The notes under the pieces: generated by a model
What the model was told of the DNA's origin: nothing
The model's input: the letters and a program-made list of their open reading frames with translations, nothing else
Database searches by the model: none
Translations under genes and position numbers: made by a program
Source of the DNA: Petrosia ficiformis
Taxonomy: Eukaryota > Porifera > Demospongiae > Haplosclerida > Petrosiidae
Reading direction: 5' to 3'
Assembly (NCBI GenBank): GCA_947044365.1
Contig: OX345636.1
Location: 29,244,466-29,308,465 of the forward strand
Length of the DNA stretch: 64,000 bases
In this document: piece after piece, positions 1,345 to 62,385 of the stretch
How the letters are laid out: every line of letters begins with the position of its first letter
How positions within the stretch are numbered: the first letter of the stretch is position 1

Positions 1345-2553
1345 GGGTCCTGAAAAGGCAAAATGTTTTTGTCACATACTCCGTCACATACTAATTGGAG
1401 TTAATTCACTTACCTAAGTGAAAGACCTTGTTTCATGTAATATGATCTAAGAGCCTTGAACCTGCATGCTCCCACACCATGTAAAAAAAGGAAACTACGC
1501 CTACATACCTAAATGAACATGAATACATGTACAGTGAATGTAAAATTGATGTTCCATTACCTTTTCCCATTGTGAAAGAATTGTGTTGCCATTCTTTTTC
1601 TATCGTGGGTTTCCCTTCCTCTATGTATAACTGACCCATTGGAGGAATTGGCCATTATTTGTAAATGTAACAATAAAACAAAGCTTCGCTTTGTTTTTGT
1701 GTAGAAAATTCGGATAAAGATACTTCTGCAGAGAAAGGGTTAAATTTTAAACTCCGCCCAACCTCCTGAGAAGTACTATTAAGTCTCACTGTGTGTCCAC
1801 TGTTTGCACACTGTTTGCTCTCGGCCTAAGGTTAGTATACATGTATTCCCCATCCTTCAAAGTTGGAACTTGGGACGCGTTTTGATAGAAGCTGTGCCAA
1901 ACACACTTCAACCAAGTCGTGAATAGGCTGGCGTGTTTCTCAGGGAAACAACGTAACTTCTCTCTCACACCATCATTGTGTAGGATGTTGCCTTGTGTTT
2001 GCATGATAACGTTTGTGAGACAAAAAGTGTTTTGCCACCCGAGTGAAATTAAGTTTGTTGTGACTGCCATGTTGTAAGTGGGCGATGGTTCTTTTCCATA
2101 ATTTCAGTTGACAAGTTGACAAAATCTGTAGATTTGAACTCAGTAGTTAGTGTTTGTTATTCTTATTGTTATTATTATTATCATTATTATCATTATTACT
2201 TTGTTGTATAGGTTTAATCATTTAATGGCAACGAAAGCACTATCAGGTATTAAACCTACATATTTCAGTTGTTTCTTCATATAAGAAGTCATGAAAAAAT
2301 GTTAAACTTATATAGTCTCATATGGTATAAGTATTGACATTGATAGGGTTATATCAGGATGTTTTTGTCCTTACTCAAGCATGAGTATTCTGTGGTTGTA
2401 TAAGTATTATACTATTTTGAATGTTTAATAAAGCTACTATACACTGTACTATCCTATATGAAGTAATGACCTGTATTTCAGTATTATTATAAATTATAAT
2501 TACATATATATATATATATATATACTTGATTATTTTTTTCTCTTTTTGTTTTA
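1345..2553. other. Non-coding stretch with microsatellites
   Basis: No convincing gene. Contains AAAGGG followed by TTAA near 1733-1741, which looks like one end of a TTAA-type (piggyBac) element without a visible partner, a TTA/TTG/TCA-rich microsatellite at 2157-2203, and an (AT)n run at 2504-2524. Open frames here have no recognisable motif. Confidence 0.5.
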
Positions 2554-3428
2554 GCTCCCACATATGGGAATTTAATTGATCTACTTGAAGATGCTGAAGA
2601 CTGTTCACTTGCAAGTGATATCAGTGTACCTGAACTTCTATACTTTAAGTTTAAATTGGCCTTTCCTCATGTGAGCATTGGGCGACCTCACCATTTGTAT
2701 GATGCTGTGAAACGCATTACTGCACCTACCCGGCCATCTTTAAGAGGTAGCAGTAAACTGAGTGGCTCAGCTCTGACGCTATATAGGTGCAAGGAGTGGG
2801 TGCCCCGAGCTAGAAATCCAGGACTTCGAGGTAAGTATTTCAGTGTATCACAACAATCATACATGTGCATGAGATTATGGTATGGGTCATGGTGTGATTG
2901 TGCAGTTTCTCCATGCATATGTACATGTATGTATACAACTGTACATGTGTACTAGATTTTATGTTTTCACAGATACTGCTAGCCTACGGTTTGAATGAAG
3001 AACTCCTAGCACAAGTGTTTAGTCAGCTAGGAAGTGACCAGGAGGAGACCCTTTGGTGGTATGTAAGAGGAGTTCCTGATCATGGGTTCTATCAAGATTT
3101 GCACCAATTCTTGAAGAAATGGCCCCAAACTCGCAAATCCACTAAAGTGTCGATTGGAAGGTTTTATGTTGCAATTGATAAGAACCTACAAACTAGAGGT
3201 TTCCGTCCTGATAACGCCTACCGTTTCATTGAGAGACTTACAATGTCTAAGCATCCTCGAAATTCAGTTGTGAGGTATGGCTTGGTAGAACCAGAGGTAA
3301 ATACTCTACAAACCCAATTAAAGGAGTGCTCTGAATTAGCTCATAAGTTGATAACAGACTTAGACACACTGAAGAAAGACCGTGATGAAATGTAAAGACA
3401 ATTGGATTCTGTACAGCGTACCTTAAAG
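2554..3428 (+). pseudogene. Unrecognised two-exon gene fragment with C-terminal coiled coil
   Basis: An acceptor (gttttag) at about 2553 opens an exon encoding YGNLIDLLEDAEDC...LYRCKEWVPRARNPGLR, which ends at a GTAAGT donor at 2832. Splicing to the AG at 2991-2992 keeps the frame and gives AYGLNEELLAQVFSQLG...RFIERLTMSKH, ending in a heptad-like stretch (NTLQTQLKECSELAHKLITD). A TAA at 3393-3395 interrupts the coiled coil, which seems to continue as RQLDSVQRTLKD before retrotransposon sequence begins. I do not recognise the family. Upstream exons may exist in the sequence to the left but were not found. It could be a host gene piece or a module of an element. Confidence 0.45.
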
Positions 3429-5056
3429 GATTCCGAAATTTATGATGCTTTGATTTCATTAGATGAAACCAAGGCCATGGGCATTGATGGTATTCCACCT
3501 ATTATCTTGAAGCATTGTGCACTTGCTCTATGTAAGCCATTTCACCAACTTTTTTGGCTGTGTCTTAAGCAAGGCTGTTTACCTTCAGAATGGAAAGCTC
3601 ACCGTATTACCCCAGAACCTAAATCAGAGGATCTTACTTCTGTTAAAAACCACAAACCTATTACTCTACTTTGTACTAATCTCCAAGGTGCTTGAACGCC
3701 TTGTTTACAACTTTTTTGTCCAGATGCCTATACTCTAAGCAATTTGATTTCATCAAAAATAGCTCTTGCCTGCAAAACTTACTCTTATTTTTCACAAATA
3801 TCTATCACTCTCATGACCTGAACATGAAAACTAATGTAATTTACACAGACTTTAGGAATGAATTACTGATCAAATTGAAGTCTACTGGTATCGGAGGCTC
3901 ACTTTGGCATTGGTTTTGTTCAGTGTGTATCAATTAATAATTCCCTTTCTCCGCTTTTATCAGTTATGTCTGGGGTTCCATAAGGGAGTATTCTCGGTCC
4001 TATCCTTTTTCTAATCTACATAAATGATTTACCTCTATCAATCAAATTTTCTAATCTTTTCTATTTGCAGATGATGGCAAATGTGCTTTGCCAATAGGGG
4101 GGCATCCTGAACAAACTCATCTACAGTCTGATATTAACTCATTATACGAATGGAGTTGCACCTGGCACCTATCTTTTAATGAAGAAAAGTTTACCTTAAT
4201 TAGATTTTTTGCTAATTTTGAGGATACTCCTATTACTCTGAGATCCTCTCACTAAGATTTAGTAGTCATAATCTCCAACGATCTAAAGTGAAATGATCAT
4301 ATAAACTACATTCTGTCTAAACCCTACAAGTTGCTCCATCTCCTACAAAGTTTCACACTGTTAAAACTGTAAACTCAAAAAAAAAATTTATTTATTGCTC
4401 ACAAAATGGGCGGCCTAATTTTATTAAGGACATTAAAGTACTAGAAGATCTACAACGTTGTGCAATCAAATTTATATTAAATGATTTTCCTTCAAACTAC
4501 AAATCCCGTCTAATTCATCTTGAGATTCTTCCCCTCGTGATGTTTTTTGAACTTAATGACGTTTTGTTCTTTGTTAAGTCAGTAAAATTTCCATCTCCTA
4601 CTTTCAACATATTAGACTATGTTTCTTTTTGTAACTCCAAAACCTGATCTTCATCTTCAAAGTTAAAACATACCTTCTCCTCAATCACCTCATCTGCTCA
4701 TTTCTATTTCAATCTCCTTCCAAGGCTGTGGAATACTCTGCCTTTTATAGATCTTAACCAGTCAGTGAGTACTATAAAACAAGATGTAAAGAAAGTTCTA
4801 TAAGAACATTTTTTGAAAAATTTAAACTCCAATAATTCTTGTTCCTTCCATATTTGTTGCCCATGTATTTTAAATTGTGTGAGTGTTAAATTCTATAAAT
4901 TCTCTTATTAGTTTTCTCTGTACCTATTTTGGTTACTGGTAGCTCTTATCAGTGGCCCTCAGTGTTGTAAACGTGTGTCAATATTTTCCCATCTTTTGTA
5001 TATCAGTTTATAGATTTTCTGTACTGTAAAATTCGTTAATAATAATAATAATCCTG
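3429..5056 (+). mobile_element. 5'-truncated non-LTR retrotransposon (CR1/L2/Jockey-like) relic
   Basis: Reverse transcriptase blocks appear in order across shifting frames: DETKAMGIDGIPPIILKHCA, LPSEWKAHRITP, NHKPITLLCT, KVLERLVYNF, FDFIKNSSCLQNLL, VIYTDFR, VMSGVP.GSILGP, LIYINDLPLSI and the catalytic YADD-like site near 4064-4075 (one base short). The 3' part ends with a cysteine-rich CSFHICCPC-like tail near 4840 and a TAA repeat at 5038-5052. The 5' part (endonuclease and ORF1) is absent, as in typical truncated insertions. Many stops show it is inactive. The clade is not resolved without alignment. Confidence 0.75.
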
Positions 5057-5576: not shown

Positions 5577-6150
5577 AACAAGCTAAATATAAGAACCTAT
5601 GCTAGTTTAAGCTAAGTTTATGTTTTACCCTTAAAATAATCCCAGCACAAAGAAAATCTAAAAGTTTAATTTGTAACAAAATTTAATTATTCACCCACCT
5701 CAAAAAGAATTCAGTTATACTTTAAAAAAACTCTTCTGTTACTCTGCAACACCATTCTGTACAACCTTATCTTATCAGCTGAACAAGTGATAACAAGGAG
5801 AAACATACAGCGTTTCTACAATCTTGTTGAAAGCATGATCCCATAACACGGTCTAGTATACAGAGAATGTAGTTAAAATTCAATTATTGCACAAACGTGT
5901 GAGAAATAATTAACTGTCATGGCCACATTCAATGACGCATACCGTATAAGTGGAAATTTTCGTTGGTAACAAATTTTCATGTGCATCTTTGACCAATGAA
6001 AAATAAACACATGAATTTTTTTGTCAAATGAAATGTTGTCACGATGGATAATTAGGACAATGAAAATTCAAAGTAACACGTTGCATGCAGGTTCGATCCA
6101 CGAGGTGTGAACAGTGAAGGCAAGTGAAGGCTAGTCGGATATTCTTGGAG
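5577..6150. other. Intergenic, nothing recognised
   Basis: AT-rich sequence without a supportable gene or clear repeat structure. Confidence 0.5.
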
Positions 6151-7285
6151 ATGGCTTTGTTACGTTACTTAAAATCTGTTGATGGTCTTCCTGACCCAAG
6201 AGGCTTGTTATCGACAAGTATTCCATCCTCTGCTATAGAAGAAGCCAATGCTCAGGTCCAGAAAGTGATGGGAGCGAAATGAAAGCGAGGGCCTTACCAG
6301 ACCTACTCTCCTAGGCTTTGCTTTAAAATTAAAATTGGAGAATACACATGCCGGCATGGAGTGCCATCAGCTGCTCGATATTTCTCCAGAAAGCTAAACT
6401 GTCATGTGAGTGAAACCACACAACGGTCGATAAAAGATTCTTATAAAATTGAGGTTTGAGCCTAACCAACAGGACCAATTGAGTCGCTTCCTCCAAAGAA
6501 GCGTGGCCGACCTTTGTTGCAGGATATGGATGAAAAAGTTCAGTTGTATCTCCTCTATGATTGTCATGGCTGCAGCAAGAGGAATATTGCTTAAATGCAA
6601 TCAGAGAATGCTGGCAGAATGTGGTGGTCACATTGAATTAAATAGATTCTTGTCATTAAAAACTGGTATAATTGTTATAATATTTTTAAATAATAATTAT
6701 CTATGATATTAGGGCTGGGTGATAGCATTGATAATTTTATACTATTGTGACTATAACAATACTGTTAGCACCATCACGATAGTAAAACGTTTTGTTTTCA
6801 GCATACACTCTACATTAACTTATGTAAACCACACTGTATACTGCATCAGTGTTTGTAGTTAGGCTTTGAGGTTCAACAAATACGAGGTCATAATACGAGG
6901 TCATAATGAGGGACCTATATTGGGACAATTTTTGGGGATTTCTTACCCATCCAGCTGATTTACAAGGGGAAAACTGATCAGTTGGTATTTGGAACAAGTG
7001 ATGAAGCAATTGGATGGAAAAGAGGAGAATTTGGAGGCAGCGGAAATTGAGCCAATAGATATGAGCATGCAGGTTATGAAGGAAGTTGGGGCTATGTGGT
7101 TAGTGAGAATGGTTGAGTACATAAATGAAAATCCAGAGTTTATTGTCAATGGATTTGTGAAGTCCGGGATGTCTGGAGTCCGGGATGGATTCTTTGAAGA
7201 GGCGGAACCTACACATGACATAAACGACGAAATTGAGAGTGTTTCAGATTTTAACTTCGAGACTGATGATGAACCCGAACAATGA
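6151..7285 (+). pseudogene. Pogo/Jerky-like (DDE_1) transposase relic with internal deletion
   Basis: Starts with MALLRYLKSVDGLPDPRGLL and SAIEEANAQVQKVM, then after a TGA resumes with KRGPYQTYSP and HGVPSAARYFSRKLN: the N-terminal DNA-binding part also seen at 1-797. PPKKRGRPLLQDMDEKVQ and LLKCNQRMLAECGGHIELNR follow in other frames near 6495-6645. After about 280 bp of unrelated AT-rich sequence, GDFLPIQLIYKGKT (6933-6976) and a long C-terminal tail (AMWLVRMVEYINENPEFIVNG, then an acidic end) close at 7283-7285. Most of the catalytic core is deleted. Confidence 0.7.
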
Positions 7286-16551: not shown

Positions 16552-18757
16552 TTAGCGACAAGAAGTGGACAGCGAAGTGTAATTTATGTGAAAAAATGAT
16601 CTCAGCAGCAGTGGGAGTAAACTCGAATTTTCGACGACATCAATAAGACTGGTCTTCTTTCCTTGAAGCAGCTGAAACTAGGAAACGAAAAGGACAATCA
16701 ACCTTAACTGAAATATTTCCAGGCCTGGTAAAGTTAACAGAAATGAAGAAAAAGATGTTAGATGAGGCAGTTGTGGAAATGATTTGCATTATCCTTACAA
16801 GGAAGAAAGGCTTCAAGCATTTGTTAATTGTAAGTATATAGCTCCTATTAAGTTAATTGTATGTATTATGTGGTTCACCTGTGTATTATGTATATACACA
16901 TTAGATTGCTGTTCCAGGATATAATCCACCAACCTATAAACATATTTGTGATACCCTCCTACCAGAGAAAATGTCCATAGTGTCAGAGAAAATACAAGCA
17001 GTTCTGACTGAATCAGAATTCTGTGGTATTACCATTGATATCTGGACTTCACGTAGAATGGAAGGGTACTTTGGGGTTACCTGTCATGTCATAGACACAA
17101 AACTTGTTTTCCACACATTCTTGTTGGTCTGTTGTCACTTAATAGGACGTCACACTGCAGAAAGAATAAACCTCTGAGCTTGAAGACATTTTGATGAAAT
17201 GGAAAATTTCACATAAGGTATGTAATTATATTATGTACAGTAGTAGGGATGGCACAGAAAACAAATGGCCGCCCCTACATTTAAATTGCAAGTGATGAGC
17301 TGAAATCTCTGTTAATATTTGGAAATACCTTTTAATGCACATATTATTGTTATTATCATATGTGACTGGATTTGAAGCTTTTTATGCAGTAAAATGTCAC
17401 CCAAATAACCCTTAACTCTCTATTTTTACTCATCTCAAAATTAATAGCTACCCTGGGTTTCACAATCTGGTCACATATTATAATGATATATACCTATGTG
17501 ACCTTTATTATTTTGAACTAAGGCTTGCCAAATGTAATTTTGTCCCCACCCTAGTCCTCTCCTGATTTTGATGGACACTGTACTGATGGAAGTTTTTAAT
17601 AATTAATTATATTTATACAGATTGTTTGCACAATCACTGAAAATGTTGCTAACATGAAAAAAGCATTTAAGCTTCCTGGTTTTGAAATTGAACATGAGGA
17701 TGATTGGATGTACGAGTTGCAATCTTATATTCCAAAACGAGGCAGTTGTAGTGCATTACAACTGGTAGTGAAGGATGGTTTCAAGGTAATTATTATTATG
17801 TGAACTGTGTATAATTTTATATTAATTCTTGATTATGTATGTTCCATAATTATAGGTAATGATTCCTTACATATGCATAACAATGTAAATTATATTGTAT
17901 TTTAAGTGGTTCACTATATAATAACTCTTTACCTTAGGGATATATTGCTGCTCAGAATGTTATATCTAAAGTGAGTCGCTCCATACGCACTATTGATACT
18001 CACACAGTACTGGATATCACTGGCAAACGGTTGCTTACAATGAATATGACTTGGTGGAACTCACAGCTCAAAAAGCTCAGGAGGGTTGATGAAATCCTTA
18101 AAACTGATCCCAACATCCAAGATAAACTTAATAACACAACAAAGCTGAAAGCTTATGATATCAGAGTTCTTCAAGAAGTTTTACTACTACTTCAACCTTT
18201 TGAGGATGCAACTGATGTGCTACAGGGAGAAAATGCAACCGCAGGCTTTTTACTTCCATCTATTGTTGGAATTAGAAAATGAGGGGAATATTCTTCATAT
18301 GAAACAGGTTTTGGCAAATTTAAACAGAAGCATTCGAAGTCGTTTTGATGAGCATGAAAAGGACAAGCTCTTCCAACTTGCAGCGGTGCTTGATCCTAGA
18401 TTTAAATTTCGATGGTGTGAAGGGTCTACAGTTGACCAGATTTAGCAGTGTCTCATAGAAGAGGCAAAAAATATTTTGCCTTTTTCTACACCTCCAAATA
18501 GTAGTGAGGAGCCCAGCCCCTCTGTGGTAGAAAATATCAAACCTCCAAGTTCAAAGAAGTTGCGATTGTTTAGCACGTTCCAGTTCAGTAGTAGCCATGG
18601 TGAACAAAGTGTGGGTAGCAAGCACGAAGCTGAGATTTCTGTTTATTTAGGAGAACCAACCTTAAAAGACCTTGATAGCAACCCACTGCCGTACTGGAAA
18701 GATTTTTCACACAGGTTTCCTATTCTTTCACTTGGAAGTTCAATATTTGTGGGCTAA
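16552..18757 (+). pseudogene. hAT-family transposase (BED finger, RNase H-like core, partial dimerisation domain)
   Basis: Exons with good borders: 16552-16829 (BED-like finger KWTAKCNLCEKMISAAVGVN then FRRHQ), 16918-17217 (GYNPPTYKHICDTLLPEKMS, ITIDIWTSRRMEGYFGVTCH with the first catalytic Asp), 17621-17785 and from 17938 (VSRSIRTIDTHTVL, LLQPFEDATDVLQGE, FQLAAVLDPRFKFRW). The end EISVYLGEPTLKDLD and LPYWKDFSHRFPILS is the start of the hAT C-terminal dimerisation domain, but it stops there instead of continuing into the SERVFS block. Stops after FRRHQ, after ERINL and after IRK show decay. The truncation point coincides with the start of the next gene. Confidence 0.75.
17361..17475. mobile_element. 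115-bp MITE with TGTGAC ends and TA flanks, in a hAT intron
   Basis: The left end reads TGTGACTGGATTTGAAGC; the right end read inward is TGTGACCAGATTGTGAAAC. Both sides are flanked by TA, consistent with a TA target duplication. It lies entirely inside the intron between 17217 and 17621. The TGTGACY start and TA duplication are shared with the 3.7-kb element at 48275-51967. Confidence 0.5.
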
Positions 18758-47595: not shown

Positions 47596-48274
47596 CTATA
47601 ATTCAAATGAAATATTAACCCTTTATATGCTGTAACGCGTTCACGTGATTTCGAGTTAATTATTAAGAAATGAAAGGTGAAAGGTCGCTCTGTTCTTTTA
47701 CTCGTTTCTCGCTAGTAAGAGTTTCTTGGATGCTGTAAGTTGACTTACTTGTTGGTAGAGACATTAAAATTACGTTTTATATATATTTAACGTGTTTCTG
47801 TATTCCCATCTGAATACTGTGTATCGATCTTTGTCGCGCTTGTGTGTATTGTGATAGTAGTGTGTGTAACCTACCTTTCTCTTTGTGGGATCATGCAGTC
47901 ATGTATCTAGAAGATTGTATTGCCTTCTCAAGTACCACTGTAGTGTGTTACTGTGATATATATTGACGGGTGATCACGGAAAAGTTTTGTTCTTGGTGAG
48001 TAAAATTATTTACGTTAGTTACTCTTTTATCTTTTTTCCACCCTGATGCAGGATTGTTTGTGCCTCTTACTGAAGGTTTTGTCTTCGTATAGGTATGGTT
48101 CATGAGATAAAGAAAACGGTAAGTATTATTGATTTATATACAAGTGCAAACGTATACTAGATTTACACTTGTATTCATACATACATATGATATATAAAGC
48201 ACTAGAAAGATGAATAATGTTTACAATATATAAATATAGTTATTGATTACAATTACCTATATATTTTTGTGATA

Positions 48275-48311
48275 TGTGACCGTGGATGAGAAAATCAACG
48301 TTATGGGCAAA
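48275..48311 (+). repeat. Left terminal inverted repeat
   Basis: 37 bp, starts TGTGACCGTGG; 36 of 37 match with the right end. Confidence 0.9.
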
Positions 48312-48618
48312 TTTAATAACTGTCAGTATAAGCAAAATAACACAAAAATTCAAACGAAAGCAGATTAGCGTTTTATTACATTTTCTTATAGTATAATACC
48401 TTAGCTTCCCTGACAATTAGTTACAGATGTCAGTTCCATACAGATTTCCTATAGCGATCGTTTAAAGAGAGAATGACCAAAAATTGACAGTAACGCCATT
48501 GTAGATACACGGAGATGTAACACGGAAAAGCCCTAACGTAAACAAACCTAATTAGCCCCACCCATGACAACTTGGGTACGTTAGGAACGCGCATTTATTA
48601 CTGCTGCTACTTTTAAGA

Positions 48619-51258
48619 ATGGATTCTGGAGAGGTTGCTCGTTTTGCTACTGCCTTAAACAGCTTTTTTCAAAGCTCCCTCTGTCCTTCTGACAGATCTG
48701 CCTGCAGTTCTATGATACAGGATTATTTTTGCAGCGAGGAAACCCCTACAGGTTAGCCAATTATCATTTTTTATTAATAAAAGTCATTGTAATCATGAAT
48801 ATTATTATCTTGTAATAGAAGATGATAACAGTGATTTTAATCTTGATGAATCAGCTACCAGTGATGAAGAAGACTGTAAGTTAATTTATGGCTTCCAGAG
48901 GAATTTGTTGAAATTATTTTATACAGTAGATTCATCAGAACCTGCAATTGTGGAAATGGATGATATTGACACACAAATAAATGAACATACAACAGATTTG
49001 GAGATAGCCTTTGATAGAAGAGAGATAGACAAGAAAGAAGAGGAGATTGTAAAATCATTTGTGGTGGAAGGGTGTGCATGCAATCTAAATGGAGGAAATG
49101 GGTGTAGTAAGTTCTTCTCACAAGAACACTACCAGTCAATGAAAAACCAATGTGTCGAACTCGATCACGACTCTCTTGATCTATTGATAATGGGACAGAT
49201 AATGGCAACTACAATATTTGAACACACAACAAGATGTGACAAAGAGAGAGAAAGGGTAACAACTCAGTTTTTACATCAAGGAAAGAAGGTAAAAGTCAAT
49301 ACTTACACATACAGGGCTACATAATATTTGGTATTTAATTTTCAAACTAATAACCTAATTATCAAAAAAATCTGTCAAATACCAAAATAACGACATTATT
49401 CGTTTCAGCCATGATACTTATTATTTAACATCTAATGTACCCAATCATTAATTTGTAGATATGCAGGACTACATTTCTGTTTTTACATGCAATTGGGACA
49501 TGCCGGTTCAAAGCACTGAAAACATGGTACTTCAGGGAAGGTCTTGTACCCAGGTAAGAAAGTATGTATTTCAAGTCAACATAAACCAATACAAATTCTC
49601 TAGAACACATGGAAACAAATCTCGTCAGCCTCACCATGCATTGAGAGTGGAGGACATCCAGCATGTGGTAAAATATATTAACAACTATGCTGAGACACAT
49701 GCCATTCTCCTTCCTGGACGCATACCAGGCTACAAAAACTACAGCATGCAACTATTACCATCTAGTTCAGCGAAAAAAGCAGTATGGGAAAATTATAGTG
49801 TAGCTACAGAATCAATAAGTCAGAGGATTGTGGGATTTAGTGCTTTTTGTAAATACTGGAAAAAGTACATGCCACACATTATAATTACTAAACCAATGTC
49901 TGACTTGTGTTGGGTGTGCCAGAAGAACAGCTCTGCAATCATAAGGAGTGCCAACCAACCCGAGGAACAGAAGACAAAAGTAAGTTATCAGCAAATACAC
50001 ATTATGTCCAAATTATAACCATTAAAATTCAGGTTTACCAACAAGCCAGAGAACATATTGACAGAGCAAGTACTGAACGTGCATTCTATAGAGAGGCATG
50101 CAAAGAGGGTAGGGACACACTACGAGCGGCATACACTACAGCAGATGGAGTTTTCTGTCCTCCACTGGTTGCCTCACCATGCTCATTAAATTTGTCTACA
50201 TGTGTACACTATTCTTTTGATTATGCACAACAAGTGCACTATCCCAGCAACCCACTTCAACCAGGACCCATATTTTTCTTAACACCTAGAAAGTGTGGCC
50301 TATTTGGGGTGTGCTGTGAGGGTATACCTCGTCAAATTAATTTTTTAATTGACGAAGCTACTGATATGGGGAAAGGAGCTAATAATGTATGCAGTATGTT
50401 GCATTATTTTTTTAGTCACCATGGTTTAGGTGAAACCAATGTCCACTTGAATGCAGACAACTGTTGTGGTCAGAACAAAAATAACACCGTAATACAGGTG
50501 AGTTTAGTAAATAAATGAAAACTCACAGTAAATTTATTTTTTCCTTTTTGCAGTACTTCATGTGGAGAGTGGCCGTGGGACTTCATCACAACATCACTTA
50601 TTCATTTCTACCTGTGGGGCATACTAAATTTTCTCCGGATTGGTGTTTCGGCTTGGTTAAGCAGAAGTTCCGACATGCAAAAGTTGACAGTCTGCAGGAT
50701 TTAGTGGATGTGGTAGAGAGTTCTGCATCTGTAAACTCTGCTCAACTAGTCGGGACCCAAGATGGAGAGATGGTAGTACCAATCTATGACTGGCAGAGCT
50801 TCTTACTTACTAAATTTAGAAAACTCCCCGGTATAAAGAAGTTCCATAACTTTAAATTTTCTTCGGAGTCTATAGGAGAGGTCATAATAAAAGAATATTC
50901 CAACAGCCTACAGAAAACTATCAACTTACTTCGTGACCCGTCAATTTTGCCATCAAATACAGAGCTACCAACAGTCTTAACTCCCACTGGTCTTTCCCCT
51001 GACCGACAGTGGTATTTGTATGACAGAATTAGGGAGTTCTGTCCAGACAGTACAAAAGATCTCGTATGCCCCCTTCCATCAATCCCACGGTACACTCCAA
51101 CTACACTCCCTTCCACAACCAGAACAGCACTACCTCTCCCATCAACTCTACCGACTCCTATATCCGAACCACCTCAAAAAAGGCAGCGAATCTGTGGTAA
51201 ATGCGGTAGGCTTGGCCACAATATGCGGACCTGTGGAGTTAATCTAAACCTAACTTAA
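48619..51258 (+). CDS. Candidate transposase, DUF7869-like, 730 residues, seven exons, apparently intact
   Basis: Exons 48619-48751, 48819-48875, 48927-49288, 49459-49553, 49604-49979, 50033-50497 and 50554-51258 join with matching phases into one open frame of 731 codons; every intron is GT-AG and short. Residues 1-110 are acidic. Residues 185-216 (CRTTFLFLHAIGTCRFKAL) and THGNKSR begin a region with ILLPGRIPGYKN and DLCWVCQ. The likely RNase H-type core has YSFDYAQQVH (Asp404), LNADNCCGQNKNN (Asp483) and GHTKFSPDWCFG (His519, Asp525). The C-terminus is a CX2CX4HX4C knuckle (Cys710, 713, His718, Cys723). The third intron may include about ten residues present in copy E. Sole visible gene of the element, hence probably its transposase; catalytic roles are inference. 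Confidence 0.85.
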
Positions 51259-51930
51259 ACATTCATTTACCATTTTTTTTTATTCTACAGGTTCTTCTCA
51301 GAACCCCACCACAAACATCAAGATTTCACAAAAAGCAGTTTAACTTATTTTACACATTTTTATTTACCTCTGTCTATTCTGCAGGAACCCCACCCCCTCC
51401 CCCCGAACACCAGACTGTGTTCTGTGGGTCAAAATTTCACCAAAGCCACTTCACCTATTTTATTTATCTTTTATTTAACAGGTTCTTTTCAGAACCCCCG
51501 AATGTCAAAACATTTCACCTTTGTTGTTTCTTAGTAATATAGAATGCATTCACCTTTCTTACAAATAATAGTAATAATAAACTGGGATATAAAAAAAGCT
51601 TAAATAATAACTCATATACATTTAGGATGTGTTAGAAAGCTCCTTGGAGTTGTAAAATGTTCGTTATCGATCCTTTCTCCAGCAACTGTAAAGTCCCATG
51701 TGTTCAATGGTAGTCACATGATATCTCGTAAACGGGAATATACGGCACATATTTAATTAATAATTCATTGTTTTTCAAAACGCGTTATCTCCAAAAATTA
51801 AAGTGCTGATATGACATGTGTTAAATGTCTATAACTTGGTAACGCATTGTCAGATCGCCAAACCGATTTCACCACAGCATAGCTGACATACCAAAGACTT
51901 CAAAAATATGAAAAAATGCATTTCGAAAAT

Positions 51931-51967
51931 TTTGCCCATAAGGTTGATTTTCTCATCCACGGTCACA
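51931..51967 (-). repeat. Right terminal inverted repeat
   Basis: Reverse complement of the left repeat, ending CCACGGTCACA; sequence diverges directly inside. Confidence 0.9.
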
Positions 51968-51969
51968 TA

Positions 51970-54108
51970 TACATAAAAACAGTCATTGTTATTTCCTTTG
52001 TGACATAGGAAAAGGTTGCAGTACCAGGTTGTTTGATACAGATAGTGTGAGCAATAATAGCATCGGTGGATAGCACCTTTTTGTGGAAAATGAAGAAGAG
52101 TTGGTTTCTTAGCAACAGGGGCTGTTACTGACGGACACCCGGCCCGTTTTCTGGAATGGTATGTGCCAATCAATGACATGGCTAATCTCTCTCGAAATTG
52201 TTTTATATTCCGTACAGTTATGGTAGAAGAATAATGTTTAGTCAAGATAAAGGAGTTGGTAACAGAAAGATGAAAAAGAAAGAAAAATATATACCTGTAT
52301 GGTTTCCTTGACTTCATATGAAATGTATAGTAATTACGAAGCTGATCATTTAGGTCGACTCCGCCCATGTATTTGTTGTAGTTTTGTATGGCTTGAGGGC
52401 AATTTATCTGTATAGAAGAACCATCATTTTTTTTACGTGTAGCAGTAGTAGTTTTATCTATAGCCTCTATGTTATTGCTAATAATAATCACTGGCTTTGT
52501 GTCTTGCCACAGGTAGATAGTCATATTTTCACATTGTAATGCTTCATAATCACCTCTGTTACGTAATCCTTTCTTCAATTTAGGTATGAATTGTGCCGGG
52601 AAACCAATTCGATTTCATTTCATCGTGCCACATCCATAGAGCTTGTTCTGGGTCAGTGAAAGAAGCAGTGGAATCGAGGTAAAGAAATTATCAAAGTAAA
52701 TGTGATGATGCTTCCCTTTCAACTTATCTGTGAGTTTCTCTACCACATTTTTTCCTAAACCTTTTTCTCCTTTCTCAGTTGTTTTGCCTGCATACACTTC
52801 TAGTTCAGAGACATAACCATTGATGGCATCCCCTCTAACCCACACTTTGAAACCCCGTTTGATGGGCTTTTTTGGCATGTACTGTTTCATGCTGCTTCTG
52901 CCCTTGAACTTTATCATGGCCTCATCAATACTTATATCACGGTGAGGATTATACATAGACAGAAATCTTTCATTTAGATGGTCAATTACAGGTCGTATCC
53001 TTCCTAGCTTGTCATACGTTGGTGAGCCATAAACAGGCAAACTGGAGTTGTCAACAAAGTGAAGGTATCTGTGAATCTCAAAAAATCGATCACGTGTAAT
53101 GCGGTCTGCTATTGGAGAGTAGTGGTAGATGGGGTTGGTTGACCAGTAGTCGTAAATGGAGGGAAGTGGAATAAGACCCATCAAAAGGAAGAAACCAAGG
53201 TAAGCTTTCACTTCTTCAACTGTTATCCTATTCCACAGTTGGTACATTTCTTCCCCCATACACTGTTCAGCATAGAGGTTAGATTGATCTGTGATCATCC
53301 TTAGTAACCCCTCTGTGAAGAAGCACAAAAACACTTCCAATATTGTGCTCGGCAATATCACCTTCGGTCCTGAGCTAGAAGAGAACTTCTCTACTTGTAC
53401 TTTCTTGTATGTCCTGCTCCATCTCAAAGTCATATCTCTTGCTCTATGTAGTAGAAAATTTATATAAAAAAACATGTAAGCAAGTTTTTGTTTGTAACTA
53501 ACTTCCTGTTCAATTCTTCATTGTTCATTTGTATATCATCATCGTCACTTGTCTCACCATCTTCTCCATTTCTCCCATCATCTCTTTCCTCATTGCAATC
53601 ATCCTGTTGATCATTGCTATCCTCATTGTTATCCTCATCAGCGTTTCTCTCCTCGTCGTCTGTACAAACCTCTACTTCATTATCTCTTTCTTCATTGTCT
53701 TGTTCCTCTTCGTTTTCATACACTCCATTCACTCTCTTTTCATTCTTATCTTCTTTGTTTCCATTGCCTCCGTCATAATTATCTCTTTCATTACTACCAT
53801 CGTCCAATTCAGATTCAGATTCAGAATTAATACTATTCCCTTCTTCACTACAGGTTCAAAAAAATGTCCCAATTACTCTCAAGTTTTTCATGTGTATAGA
53901 ATTTTTTTGCCATAAAGAGTTCTTTTTATCAATTGTATATATTATGTATTTATTTTCAATAAAATAAAATGGAGGAATACATCAAAAATTTTTTTTACCT
54001 GTCTTTCTCATACTCAAATTCATTATCACTTACATTAGTTATCACTTCATTCATGTAATCTTCTTTGTCCAGCATCACAAGTATCTCGTTTGCAGTATAC
54101 GTTGCCAT
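51970..54108 (-). pseudogene. piggyBac transposase of element 2
   Basis: Exon 1 (54108-53999) reads MATYTANEILVMLDKEDYMN and ends at GTAAAA. Exon 2 (about 53848-53500) is very acidic with Asn/Asp/Glu runs. Exon 3 starts after the AG near 53453: ARDMTLRWSRTYKK, then DDE_Tnp_1_7 blocks YLGFFLLMGLIPLPSIYDYW, DEAMIKFKGRSSMKQYMPKK, HIYFDNFFTSIPLLLSL, YNKYMGGVDLNDQLRNYYTF. A TGA follows CGTMK (52615-52617), where this family normally continues into an NRxGFP block, which is present directly after. The Cys-rich end (CYYCSHYL, CNLFLC) is cut by the nested element. So at least two lesions: a nonsense codon and the insertion. Confidence 0.88.
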
Positions 54109-55104: not shown

Positions 55105-56860
55105 GTAATGCAAACAGGTATTGCGATCACTCGAGCGTGCATGTGCAAACACACACATGTTCGAGTGTCTGACTGTTGAGGAACTTGAAGATGCTGTGAA
55201 GTACATTCTCAGCTATGCTGAAAAAAATGCCATACTTCTACCTGGACGAATACCTGGGTATAAGAAATATAACGTTCAACTATTGCCCTCCAGTTGTACA
55301 AAAAAAGGGGTATGGCAGCTATATGAATCAGCAAATGAAAAAGTAGATGGTAAGAGAGTGGTTCGCCAAAGTACTTTTAGGAAGCTGTGGAATAAATACA
55401 CTCCACATGTTATCACAAAACCTCGTTCTGATTTGTGCTGGACTTGCCAGAAGTACAGCACTGCACTTATAAGGAGGAGTGTGAACACACCTGAGAAGAG
55501 CAGACCAGAAGTCAATTACATGTAAATTAAATGTTAAAACATATGTGTGCATTGATTTACTCACATTATTTCAGTTGTACAGACAAGCTGTCAGTCACTT
55601 AGAAAGGGCTACAACAGAGAGGAAATATTATAAAGATGCATGTGAAGAATCCTCCAAACAAGTGCATGCTTTATTCACAGAAGATAATATATATTCTCCT
55701 CTTCCACAAAATTCTTCTCATCAACCCAATTCACTCGAGATCTGTGTTTATTACTCCTTCCATTTTGCCCAGCAGGTACATCTTCCAAGTGATCCACTTC
55801 AACCTGGACCAATCTATTTTTTAACTTCACGCAAATGTGGTTTATTCGGTGTCACATGTGAGCATCCCTCGTCAGGTCAATTTCCTAATTGATGAAGCAG
55901 TTGATATGGGAAAAGGGGCAAATTCCATATGCAGCATGTTACACTTACTTTTTTAGTCATCATGGTTTGGGAGAACAGACAGTACATCTCAATGCCGACA
56001 ACTGCGTCGGACAGAATAAGAACAATATTGTTATACAGGTACATTTAATAACGTGTGAAAAAGTAATGTTGTGACATCAATTTTTTTATCATAGTACTTC
56101 ATGTGGAGAGTAATGGTTGGACTTCACCAACACATCACCCTATCTTTTCTGCCAGTTGGACATACAAAATTTGCCACTGATGCCTGTTTTGGATTAACTC
56201 TTTCCCGTCTATAATTAAAATAGGCGTTTTCTTTATTAACCCAAATTTAATTAACGAAATTATGTGTGGGCGGAGCGCTTAATATCTAATTCCTATAACT
56301 ATCCTATTTTATAAGACTGAAGATTCTAACTTACTTTGTTGCGAAGAAGAGTGTTTAAGAAACAAATTTAAAAAATTTACACTTCGCTATCCACAGGAAG
56401 AGACCAAGGCGAGCGCTTGTAAGTACAGTAGTCCACGGGCAACGCCCACTTTTTTTTGTCTGCATAGCGCCTGCATTTTAAACAGGAGTGACATTTAACT
56501 CACTCAGTTAGACAGAAGACCTTCTTAGAAAGCCATTGATACTAAAAATATGCTTTGCTAGTTGCAAGAAAGCAGCAAGACGAGTGTTTAAAAATATAGT
56601 AGTCAGCGGCGACGCCCATATTTAGCGTCTTTATCACTTTCGTTTGGCCTGTGACTCCACTTTTTCACTACTATAAACCAAGTACATATCGTCTTCGTAT
56701 TGCATGCTTGTTAGTTTGTTCTATTTTTAAAGAATTTAGCATCAATTTGCACTTTGCTACTTAGGTTGCAAATCTGCAACCTTGGCTAATTCGTGCATTG
56801 TTTAAAAGTTGCATATATGCAACTTTGGTTGGTAAAGGGTTAATTAAACAAAAACTGACT
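55105..56860 (+). pseudogene. DUF7869-like gene, copy D, interrupted by a TTAA MITE
   Basis: Exon 55130-55510: LEDAVKYILSYAEKNAILLP, YKKYNVQLLPSSCTKKGVWQ, ITKPRSDLCWTCQKYSTALI. Exon from 55575: LYRQAVSHLERATTERKYYK, then FHFAQQVHLPSDPLQPGPIY, CGLFGVTCE and, after a frameshift, VNFLIDEAVDMGKGANSICS, a second shift, HLNADNCVGQNKNNIVIQ to a donor at 56039. Next exon 56096: YFMWRVMVGLHQHITLSFLP, HTKFATDACFG, where a 642-bp MITE sits at 56198-56839. After it only about 14 bp match the family. The 5' exons and the knuckle are missing. Confidence 0.8.
56198..56839. mobile_element. 642-bp TTAA-type (piggyBac-like) MITE
   Basis: Flanked by TTAA (56194-56197 and 56840-56843). Ends CTCTTTCCCGTC and, read inward from the right, CCCTTTACCAAC, sharing only the CNCTTT core. 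A perfect 22-bp palindrome around GTTGCATATATGCAAC lies at 56805-56826. The homologous position in copy E reads GGGTTAATTAAAC without insert, which confirms both borders. Confidence 0.88.
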
Positions 56861-59880: not shown

Positions 59881-62385
59881 GTAGTGGCCAGTCCTGCCAC
59901 AGTTACCACAAACTCATTGTTTTTTTGTAGGTAGCTCTTCTCCAGAAAAACTGATGGTCGGTCTAGATGGTGAAGGAAGTGGTGTGGCCGATGAGCAAGG
60001 CATACAAGGTAGAGGACACACGATATCTTTTGTGTCATCAGAACAGAAATCTCTTATTTTTTCATAGAGGTACCTCTGCCTCTCGTTTGAAAGCCCTGTA
60101 GGGTAAAGGAGTTGGGGAAGTTCTGCTGGAGATGGTGACCAAGTGGCATCAGGCAGAAGTGTTATTGTGCTCTTGTCTGTGTTTGAGAACTCACTAATTT
60201 TTACAGTTCCTGGACAGTCGCTGCTAAACACAAACTTGTGAATCTGTTTTATGTGTGAAAGTTTTCTGAATTTAGTTTCAAAGTAATTGTGCCAATCGAA
60301 TAATGGAACGGTTCTTTCACCTGTTAATTGATTTCCAACTGGTTGTGCTATATTAACATGCGATGACCTCTCTACAAGTCTGGCCAAATCATCAATACAG
60401 TCCACTCGTGTATGACAAAATCTTTGTTTAATTAACCCGAAACAGGCATCAGTGGCAAATTTTGTATGTCCAAGTGGCAGAAAAGATAAGGTAATGTGTT
60501 GGTGAAGTCCAACCATTACTCTCCACATGAAGTACTATGAAAAAATAAATCGGTGTCACAACATTACTTTTTCATACATGTTATTAAATGTACCTGTATA
60601 ACGATATTGTTCTTATTCTGTCCGACGCAGTTGTCAGCATTGAGATGTACCGTCTGTTCTCCCAAACCATGATGACTAAAGAAGTAGTGTAACATGCTGC
60701 ATATGGAATTTGCCCCTTTTCCCATATCAACTGCTTCATCAATTAGGAAGTTGACCTGACGAGGGATCCTTTCACATGTGACACCAAATAAACCATATTT
60801 GCGCGGAGTTAAAAAAATAGATAGGTCCAGGTTGAAGTGGATCACTCGGAAGATGTACCTGCTGGGCAAAATCGAAGGAGTAATGAACACAGACCTTGAC
60901 TGAATTGGGTTGATGAGAACAATTTGGTGGAGGAGGAGAATATATATTATCTTCTGTGAATAAAGCATGTACTTGTTTGGAGGATTCTTCACATGCATCT
61001 TTATAATATTTCCTCTCTGTTGTAGCCCTCTCTAAATGACTGACAGCTTGTCTGTACAACTGAAGTAATGTGAGTAAATGTTTAATATCTAATGCATTCA
61101 TATGTTTCAACATTTAATTTAATCTACTCACTTCTGATCTGCTCTCCTCAGGTGTGTTCACACTCCTTATAAGTGCAGTGCTGTACTTCTGGCAAGTCCA
61201 GCACAAATCAGAACGAGGTTTTGTGATAACAACGTGTGGAGTGTATTTATTCCAGAGCTTCCTAAAGGTACTTTGGTGAACCACTCTATTACCATCTAAT
61301 TTTTCAGTTGCTGATTCATACAGCTGCCATACACCTTTTTTTTGTACAACTGGAGGGCAATAGTTGAACATTATATTTCTTATACCCAGGTATTCGTCCA
61401 GGTAGAAGTATGGCATTTTTTTTAGCATAGCTGAGAATGTACTTCACAGCATCTTGAAGTTGCTTTACACTCAGTGAGTGTTGAGGCTGACGATTGGCAT
61501 TGCCATGTGTTCTAAAGACAGGTTCAGTTGATTAATTTTAGTGTTTTGATAAGTGACCATGTCTCACCGAGGTACAAGACCATTTTTCATATATGCAGCT
61601 CTATCTGCTTCTAGTCTCTTCTTGCTAATTCCACGAAGAAAGAAATGTCTTCCTGCAAACCTTTGATAAAAGGAGTCATTATTTTCACACTATAACAACA
61701 CTTGTTAACATAATGATGTGAAGTACACTTACTGATTTTCCATGGTGATAAAAATGTGTGAATATCTTCATTATTTGACCCATGATGACTAGATCTAAAG
61801 CATCATGTTCAAGTTGTGCCATGTTGTTACGCATCTCTCCATAATGCTCTGCAGAAAATTGTTTCCAGCAAAGTTTGTGGCAGCCACACCCTTCTGTTGA
61901 AAATAACAGAACCCGTTCCTCTTCCTTGACATCAATCTCTCTCTTTTCCACATCCACTTCCTTCCAACTATCCTAATCTCCACCCTTCAAACCACCTCAT
62001 CTTCCTGTTCTTCGTAGAGTTCTCCATCGTCATCAGCAGAGTCTCATCTCCATACAGCTGCATCATCATTGTCACCTGTACAAGAACAATGTCAATTTGC
62101 AGCTTATTTATATCTCTAGAGAATGTATTCACTTTCAAAATCTAAGTCTTCATCCTGCTCGTCATTGTCTATTAATTATATTCATTTGTTATTATAAGTA
62201 TATGAATTCATTATAATAATTACTAATTAGCTTACCTTCAGGGTCATCCTCATTCCAAAAATAGTCGGTAATGAAGCAAGTGAGTGCTTCTTGGTCTGAT
62301 GGGGTCAGTGAGCTTTGAAAAAAGCTGTTTAAAAATTGCAATATCTCCAGAATTCCTTGAAACCATCACTCAAACAATAGAAAGA
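59881..62385 (-). pseudogene. DUF7869-like gene, copy E, nearly full length but broken
   Basis: Exon 1 (about 62385-62237) has FFQSS and SDQEALTCFITDYFWNEDDP, matching exon 1 of the intact gene. Acidic exons follow, then EERVLLFSTEGCGCHKLCWK (61950), SFYQRFAGRHFFLRGISKKR (61670), LPGRIPGYKK region with an A-run frameshift, LCWTCQKYSTALI, YRQAVSHLERATTERKYYKD, IPRQVNFLIDEAVDMGKGAN, HLNADNCVGQNKNN, then 60528-59914 open (GHTKFATDACFGLIKQRF ... ERQRYLYEKIRDFCSDDTKD). A TGA after LPTKKQ precedes CGNCGRTGHYRNTC. CGA is expected there, so a CpG transition is likely. Inverted relative to copy D. Confidence 0.85.

Follow-up and report, generated by a model that had tools for sequence, protein, structure and literature searches.

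A probable DNA transposon with TA flanks in the sponge Petrosia ficiformis and a proposed transposase function for the DUF7869 domain

Described DNA transposons that invite comparison with the element reported here fall into several groups, and the features given for them come from individual passages of the sources cited. Tc1/mariner elements make TA duplications and are the largest superfamily of miniature inverted-repeat transposable elements (MITEs) in insects (PMC5199201). In the CMCT clade (EnSpm, Transib, ESTA, and Plavaka), C(2)C and H(3-4)H motifs lie between the second D and the last acidic residue; the duplications of ESTA and PlavakaA are 2 bp (TA for ESTA), and PlavakaA has TGT..ACA ends (PMC12730594). 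A C/DxxH motif lies between the second D and the last E in hAT, MuDR, P, Kolobok, and Dada (PMC10045372, PMC3706591), Zator is reported to be similar to ISAzo13 (PMC10045372), and Sola1-3 are listed superfamilies (PMC5753468). The subject of this study is a 3,693-bp element at positions 48275-51967 of a 64,000-bp stretch (the window; C1:29244466-29308465) of the P. ficiformis genome (191 Mb, 29 contigs). We consider it very likely that this is an autonomous, probably cut-and-paste DNA transposon that inserts at TA, and that its spliced 730-residue protein, which contains the Pfam domain DUF7869, is the transposase. This explanation draws on what was observed of the ends, the gene, their co-segregation, the TA pattern, and recent copies, and on a fold predicted for a relative.

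The element, its gene, and its ends

The 37-bp inverted ends of the element (left, 48275-48311, + strand; right, 51931-51967, - strand) matched at 36 of 37 positions, with the mismatch at position 26. These ends, proposed in the first-pass annotation from the letters alone, were recovered by the alignment of the ends of 48275-51967 and by a repeat search of the window, which returned inverted arms at 48272-48314 and 51928-51970 (43 nt, 95% complementary). TA was present immediately outside each end, as had also been claimed, and the two copies of the putative target-site duplication (TSD) occupied positions 48273-48274 and 51968-51969.

A single gene lay between the ends. It had been read as seven exons that join in phase into 730 residues without a stop, and exon joining bore this out: all six introns were GT-AG, and the spliced product was 730 codons plus a stop. 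On the + strand, the spliced reading placed exons 1 to 7 at 48619-48751, 48819-48875, 48927-49288, 49459-49553, 49604-49979, 50033-50497, and 50554-51258 (stop included). Sequence reading of a second subfamily, represented by locus L030, found introns at the same place and in the same phase after codons 184, 215, 341, and 496, including those that follow exons 3, 4, and 5; this comparison covered four of the six introns, with the first two left out. The intron after codon 215, which follows exon 4, was absent in locus L080.

The 730-residue protein matched DUF7869 (PF25273) with 74.6 bits (E=1e-20; gathering cut-off, 26) over residues 450-612, which are encoded by 50357-50901 on the + strand and interrupted by the last intron. 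It is the putative catalytic half of the protein that scores with this model, to which Pfam assigns no function. The same cut-off was passed by nine of nine more sequences (L075, L071, L072, L073, L066, L049, L077, L078, and exon 7 alone). A CCHC zinc knuckle, CxxCxxxGHxxxxC, was readable at residues 707-723 (51184-51234, + strand), where zf-CCHC_4 matched under its Pfam cut-off (E=0.019). None of the NCBIfam models scored above cut-off with the six proteins searched, and a PDB sequence search returned a single row at E<=1, namely, Rrp5 at 0.17.

Co-segregation of ends and gene, target sites, and recent copies

The query for a genome search was TA followed by the 25 terminal bp of the end, with <=3 mismatches allowed and the reversed pattern as a control. 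The pattern gave 70 matches (33 forward and 37 reverse) and the control gave 0, so the inverted ends are not a product of chance. Forty of the matches formed 20 inverted neighbor pairs <10 kb apart, and 30 were unpaired. All six pairs longer than 3 kb (the window element, L033, L029, L030, L031, and L032) carried this gene, whole or broken. Four of these, L029 to L032, made up the second subfamily, with 49-57% protein identity over long tblastn stretches. L033 had its middle inverted; L029 and L031 had a frame change within the last exon, and L032 had no tblastn match to residues 45-188. The 14 shorter pairs measured 1,175, 425-426, 257-270, and 86 bp, and tblastn at E<=0.01 found no trace of the gene in them (L034-L047). 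The search for full and deleted copies that the first-pass annotation had suggested returned six pairs longer than 3 kb and 14 gene-less ones. That annotation had taken the gene for the transposase and had named a different gene between the same ends as a finding that would overturn this; no such pair appeared among the six. The ends and the gene belong together. We rejected a passenger gene on account of the presence of the gene in all six long pairs.

The TA duplications, being those of the largest MITE superfamily in insects, lend some color to a reading in which a host or passenger gene became trapped in a mariner-type MITE. We regard that reading as extremely improbable: the gene occurred in six of six long pairs, among them those of a subfamily whose protein has diverged by about half; it is also present in more distant relatives, which have TGTG ends of other sequence; and its predicted fold is transposase-like.

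Two of the long pairs provided further observations. L033 (C1:24303003-24306675) is a second near-complete copy, in which the inverted middle of ~610 bp was 95% alike and the outer parts were 97-99% alike. L029 and L031 had both flanks in common (~96.6%) and were therefore counted as one duplicated insertion, which leaves three independent insertions of the second subfamily. The two elements themselves were 99.9% identical, as against only ~96.6% for the common flanks, a discrepancy that could stem from gene conversion or from uneven simple repeats.

Of 23 tabulated elements, 21 had TA immediately adjoining each end, a count to be read with caution, as 19 of the 23 came from the TA-containing pattern with <=3 mismatches permitted. 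The others were L037, with AT/AT, and L035, which had its last base altered and no matching pair. Among elements found without TA in the pattern, TA/TA was seen in four of four (L079, L080, L083, and L078), or in four of five when L070 is added. The share of TA among dinucleotides in the flanks of the 19 pattern-found elements was 0.19. Two base pairs was the sole duplication length that fitted every element with any matching pair, and 3 bp fitted 0 of 23. Duplications of 4, 6, 8, or 10 bp were rejected, as they fitted certain copies merely through (TA)n flanks, and many targets were (TA)n. TA is self-complementary and could in principle belong to the inverted repeat; the AA/AA flanks of L070 argue for a duplication rather than for TA as part of the repeat. 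An unfilled paralogous site, L086, joined the flanks of L044 with a single TA, and 16 of the 17 bases at the junction agreed. It was the clean one among six aligned paralogues, and the rest varied around (TA)n. In the case of L040, which sits in a host repeat, at least 40 copies of that repeat spanned the join (40 scored of 2,383 candidates). Cut-and-paste DDE/D transposons are recognized by inverted ends that bound the gene and by a short, constant duplication; the former were found in six of six long pairs and the latter in the 21 of 23 TA/TA elements, with L078 (TA/TA) and L070 (AA/AA) in addition.

Near-identical gene-less copies showed that some family members moved recently. Five copies of 425-426 bp matched element positions 1-192 plus 3457-3693 at ~95% and were 98.6-100% identical to one another (10 comparisons); since they are closer to each other than to the window element, they probably came from a sister copy and not from this one. 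Four 1,175-bp copies were 99.3-99.5% alike, four 3.1-3.4-kb copies were 99.0-99.9% alike, and four 257-270-bp copies were 90.7-96.1% alike. When genes were compared with the window gene, the synonymous share of changed codons was 24/62 for L002 (p 0.0014), 22/54 for L007 (p 0.001), 5/12 for L033 (p 0.09), and 3/13 for L008, which had two stops; the random share was 21%. The intact frame and the 98.6-100% identity of the nonautonomous copies are sequence features that indirectly favor the earlier suggestion that the element is possibly active.

Four further, more diverged DUF7869 groups sat inside inverted ends of their own, all with TGTG tips (TGTG..CACA). The ends of L079 and L080 read TGTGACC.AGTCT.AGAAAAA, with TA/TA flanks. 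L083 enclosed the intronless 649-residue L075 gene between TGTGAGGAGGCA..GGAAAAGGG, again with TA/TA flanks, and L078 had the ends TGTG.GTGGTTCAAGT.AAACTCAAACC and TA/TA flanks. The ends of L070 were TGTGT.GTGGACTAGGAAAAGGGG, its flanks were AA/AA, and its gene was interrupted by stops. L071 was dropped as an extra group when its TA|TGTGA..TCACA|TA pair agreed at just 9 of 20 positions. For L049, L066, L068, L069, L071, L072, L073, L077, L081, and L082, searches of the flanks for inverted ends gave 11-15-nt seeds or none, a weak negative with flanks mostly of <=~1.5 kb.

Several other features were recorded. Outside the 2.2-kb fourth-group element, L083 had inverted arms of ~400 bp at 118-519 and 5929-6323 that were 95.8% alike. 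L049, L052-L055, and similar loci formed a separate DUF7869 type with GHTHEDID, which includes the top domain score of the genome; L049 was the one locus of this type whose flanks were searched, and no inverted ends past an 11-nt seed were found there. In the window, two more DUF7869 gene copies, readable across several frames, lay at 55109-56074 (+ strand) and 59914-61972 (- strand), and no TA|TGTGA[CG][CG] tip was found near either. At 17469-17503, the tips GGTCACA|TA and TA|TGTGACC faced outward with ~20 bp between them. A transposase frame at 52615-53517 (- strand), ~650 bp past the right end of the element, matched Pfam DDE_Tnp_1_7 (E=1.1e-62), and we take it to be of the piggyBac type.

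Predicted fold, proposed mechanism, and relation to known superfamilies

The first-pass annotation had suggested structure prediction against RNase H-fold transposases. The catalytic part of a relative was predicted to adopt an RNase H fold like that of mariner transposase and retroviral integrase. By this model, the catalytic triad is likely D404 (50219-50221, exon 6), D483 (50456-50458, exon 6), and D525 (50638-50640, exon 7), a DDD arrangement whose second and third D are separated by 41 residues; the corresponding places in the relative are the first strand, the end of the fourth strand, and the last helix of the fold. The motifs around the candidate residues were ADNCxGQNKN and GHTxxxxDxxF.

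What follows on catalysis, on the identity of the triad, on how excision proceeds, and on which protein drives which nonautonomous family is what we infer. Binding of the ends probably falls to the N-terminal half. An RNase H-fold DDD nuclease/strand-transferase would recognize the TGTGACCGTGGATGAGAAAATCAA ends and excise the element; its DDD core would cut and rejoin, so that the element is joined to TA-rich targets with TA left on each side. The known mariner pattern would, by analogy, hold for excision and for joining at TA. The CCHC knuckle may bind nucleic acid, and this transposase or a close relative of it would mobilize in trans the internally deleted copies that bear these ends.

Tc1/mariner likewise has a TA duplication, one transposase gene, and short inverted ends, and the RNase H core predicted here, with its three candidate acidic residues, would be a further resemblance. 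We therefore weighed a very divergent branch of IS630-Tc1-mariner. TA/TA in 21 of 23 elements agrees with it, as does the DD41D-like spacing, since 41 residues is within the range of the Tc1/mariner group. Among the structures listed in the comparisons, SETMAR and Mos1 ranked top with the full model of the relative, whereas retroviral integrases ranked first with the domain model alone; mariner is thus not the only group to which the fold points. Furthermore, no Tc1/mariner Pfam model matched the window protein or nine further sequences at E<=1 (HMMER filters drop most matches above ~0.1), and the surroundings of the triad are unlike those of Tc1/mariner. The C-terminal CCHC knuckle and the TGTG ends also set the window element apart. 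On balance, this placement is unlikely.

The sole transposase profile to echo in these proteins was DDE_Tnp_ISAZ013, over the D2-D3 stretch (E=0.0014 for the window protein and 0.036 for L075). This weak, sub-threshold similarity, along with the reported likeness of Zator to ISAzo13, is what speaks for a divergent Zator/ISAzo13 transposon. However, the score fell short of the PF07592 cut-off (18.1 versus 26.9 bits), and the duplications given for Zator and ISAzo13 in the passage cited are 3 bp (PMC10045372), a length that fitted none of the 23 elements here, where it is 2 bp. We consider this assignment improbable.

Other superfamilies were separated by motifs and duplication length. The window element resembles ESTA and PlavakaA in its 2-bp duplications and PlavakaA in its TGT..ACA ends, but it lacks the CMCT motifs: neither C(2)C nor H(3-4)H lies between D483 and D525, if these are catalytic. 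With the same proviso, C/DxxH is absent from that interval, and the TSD of 2 bp, not 4-10, differs from those of hAT, MuDR, P, Kolobok, and Dada. No Pfam model of PHIS (Harbinger, ISL2EU, and Spy) matched the window protein or the nine further sequences at E<=1.

Of the superfamilies that could be compared, none agreed with the element in every feature examined, which makes the DUF7869 group a candidate for a superfamily of its own. The description of the element as belonging to an under-described superfamily fits the comparisons that could be made outside Repbase. Since the Repbase and Sola proteins stood outside the comparison, a new superfamily is plausible only. For the same reason, the group might already be catalogued in Repbase or Dfam, for example, as a Sola group or an unclassified DNA entry, with only the link to DUF7869 being new. 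A Sola TSD is 4 bp, versus 2 bp here, and the literature search, which did not reach Repbase Reports, found no mention of "DUF7869"; we hold prior cataloguing to be doubtful. In that search, no two of "GQNKN," "GQNRN," and "transposase" occurred together in one paper, and no title dealt with such an element, though the group may carry a name in Repbase Reports.

DUF7869 beyond the sponge and its meaning

A scan of prokaryotic contigs with alignment A3 found two loci, L094 and L095. L094, a contig of 3,889 bp from a Nitrospirales metagenome-assembled genome (MAG), bears a 645-codon DUF7869 frame (374-2311) that converges on an ISL3 transposase frame (2308-3627). DUF7869 was found in 1 of 295 genomes of that phylum, namely, in L094's own, and the locus may reflect contamination, a chimera, or transfer. 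L095 came from the MAG of a sponge symbiont and is likely contamination. Searches of IMG/VR with a few short patterns each from the L075 protein, exon 6, and alignment A3 confirmed no viral relatives, and none were found in BFVD at E<=0.001.

We see about an even chance that DUF7869 is the catalytic domain of an as yet unnamed superfamily of DDD transposons, one in which the ends are TGTG..CACA and the duplications 2 bp long and mostly TA, of which several groups inhabit one genome, some recently mobile, and which possibly passed into bacteria. The analysis proposes a function for a Pfam domain of unknown function: at least those DUF7869 genes that lie within inverted ends look like transposases. 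The termini, the target pattern, and the intact frame make activity directly testable, and a further superfamily could be present among what annotation now calls uncharacterized genes.
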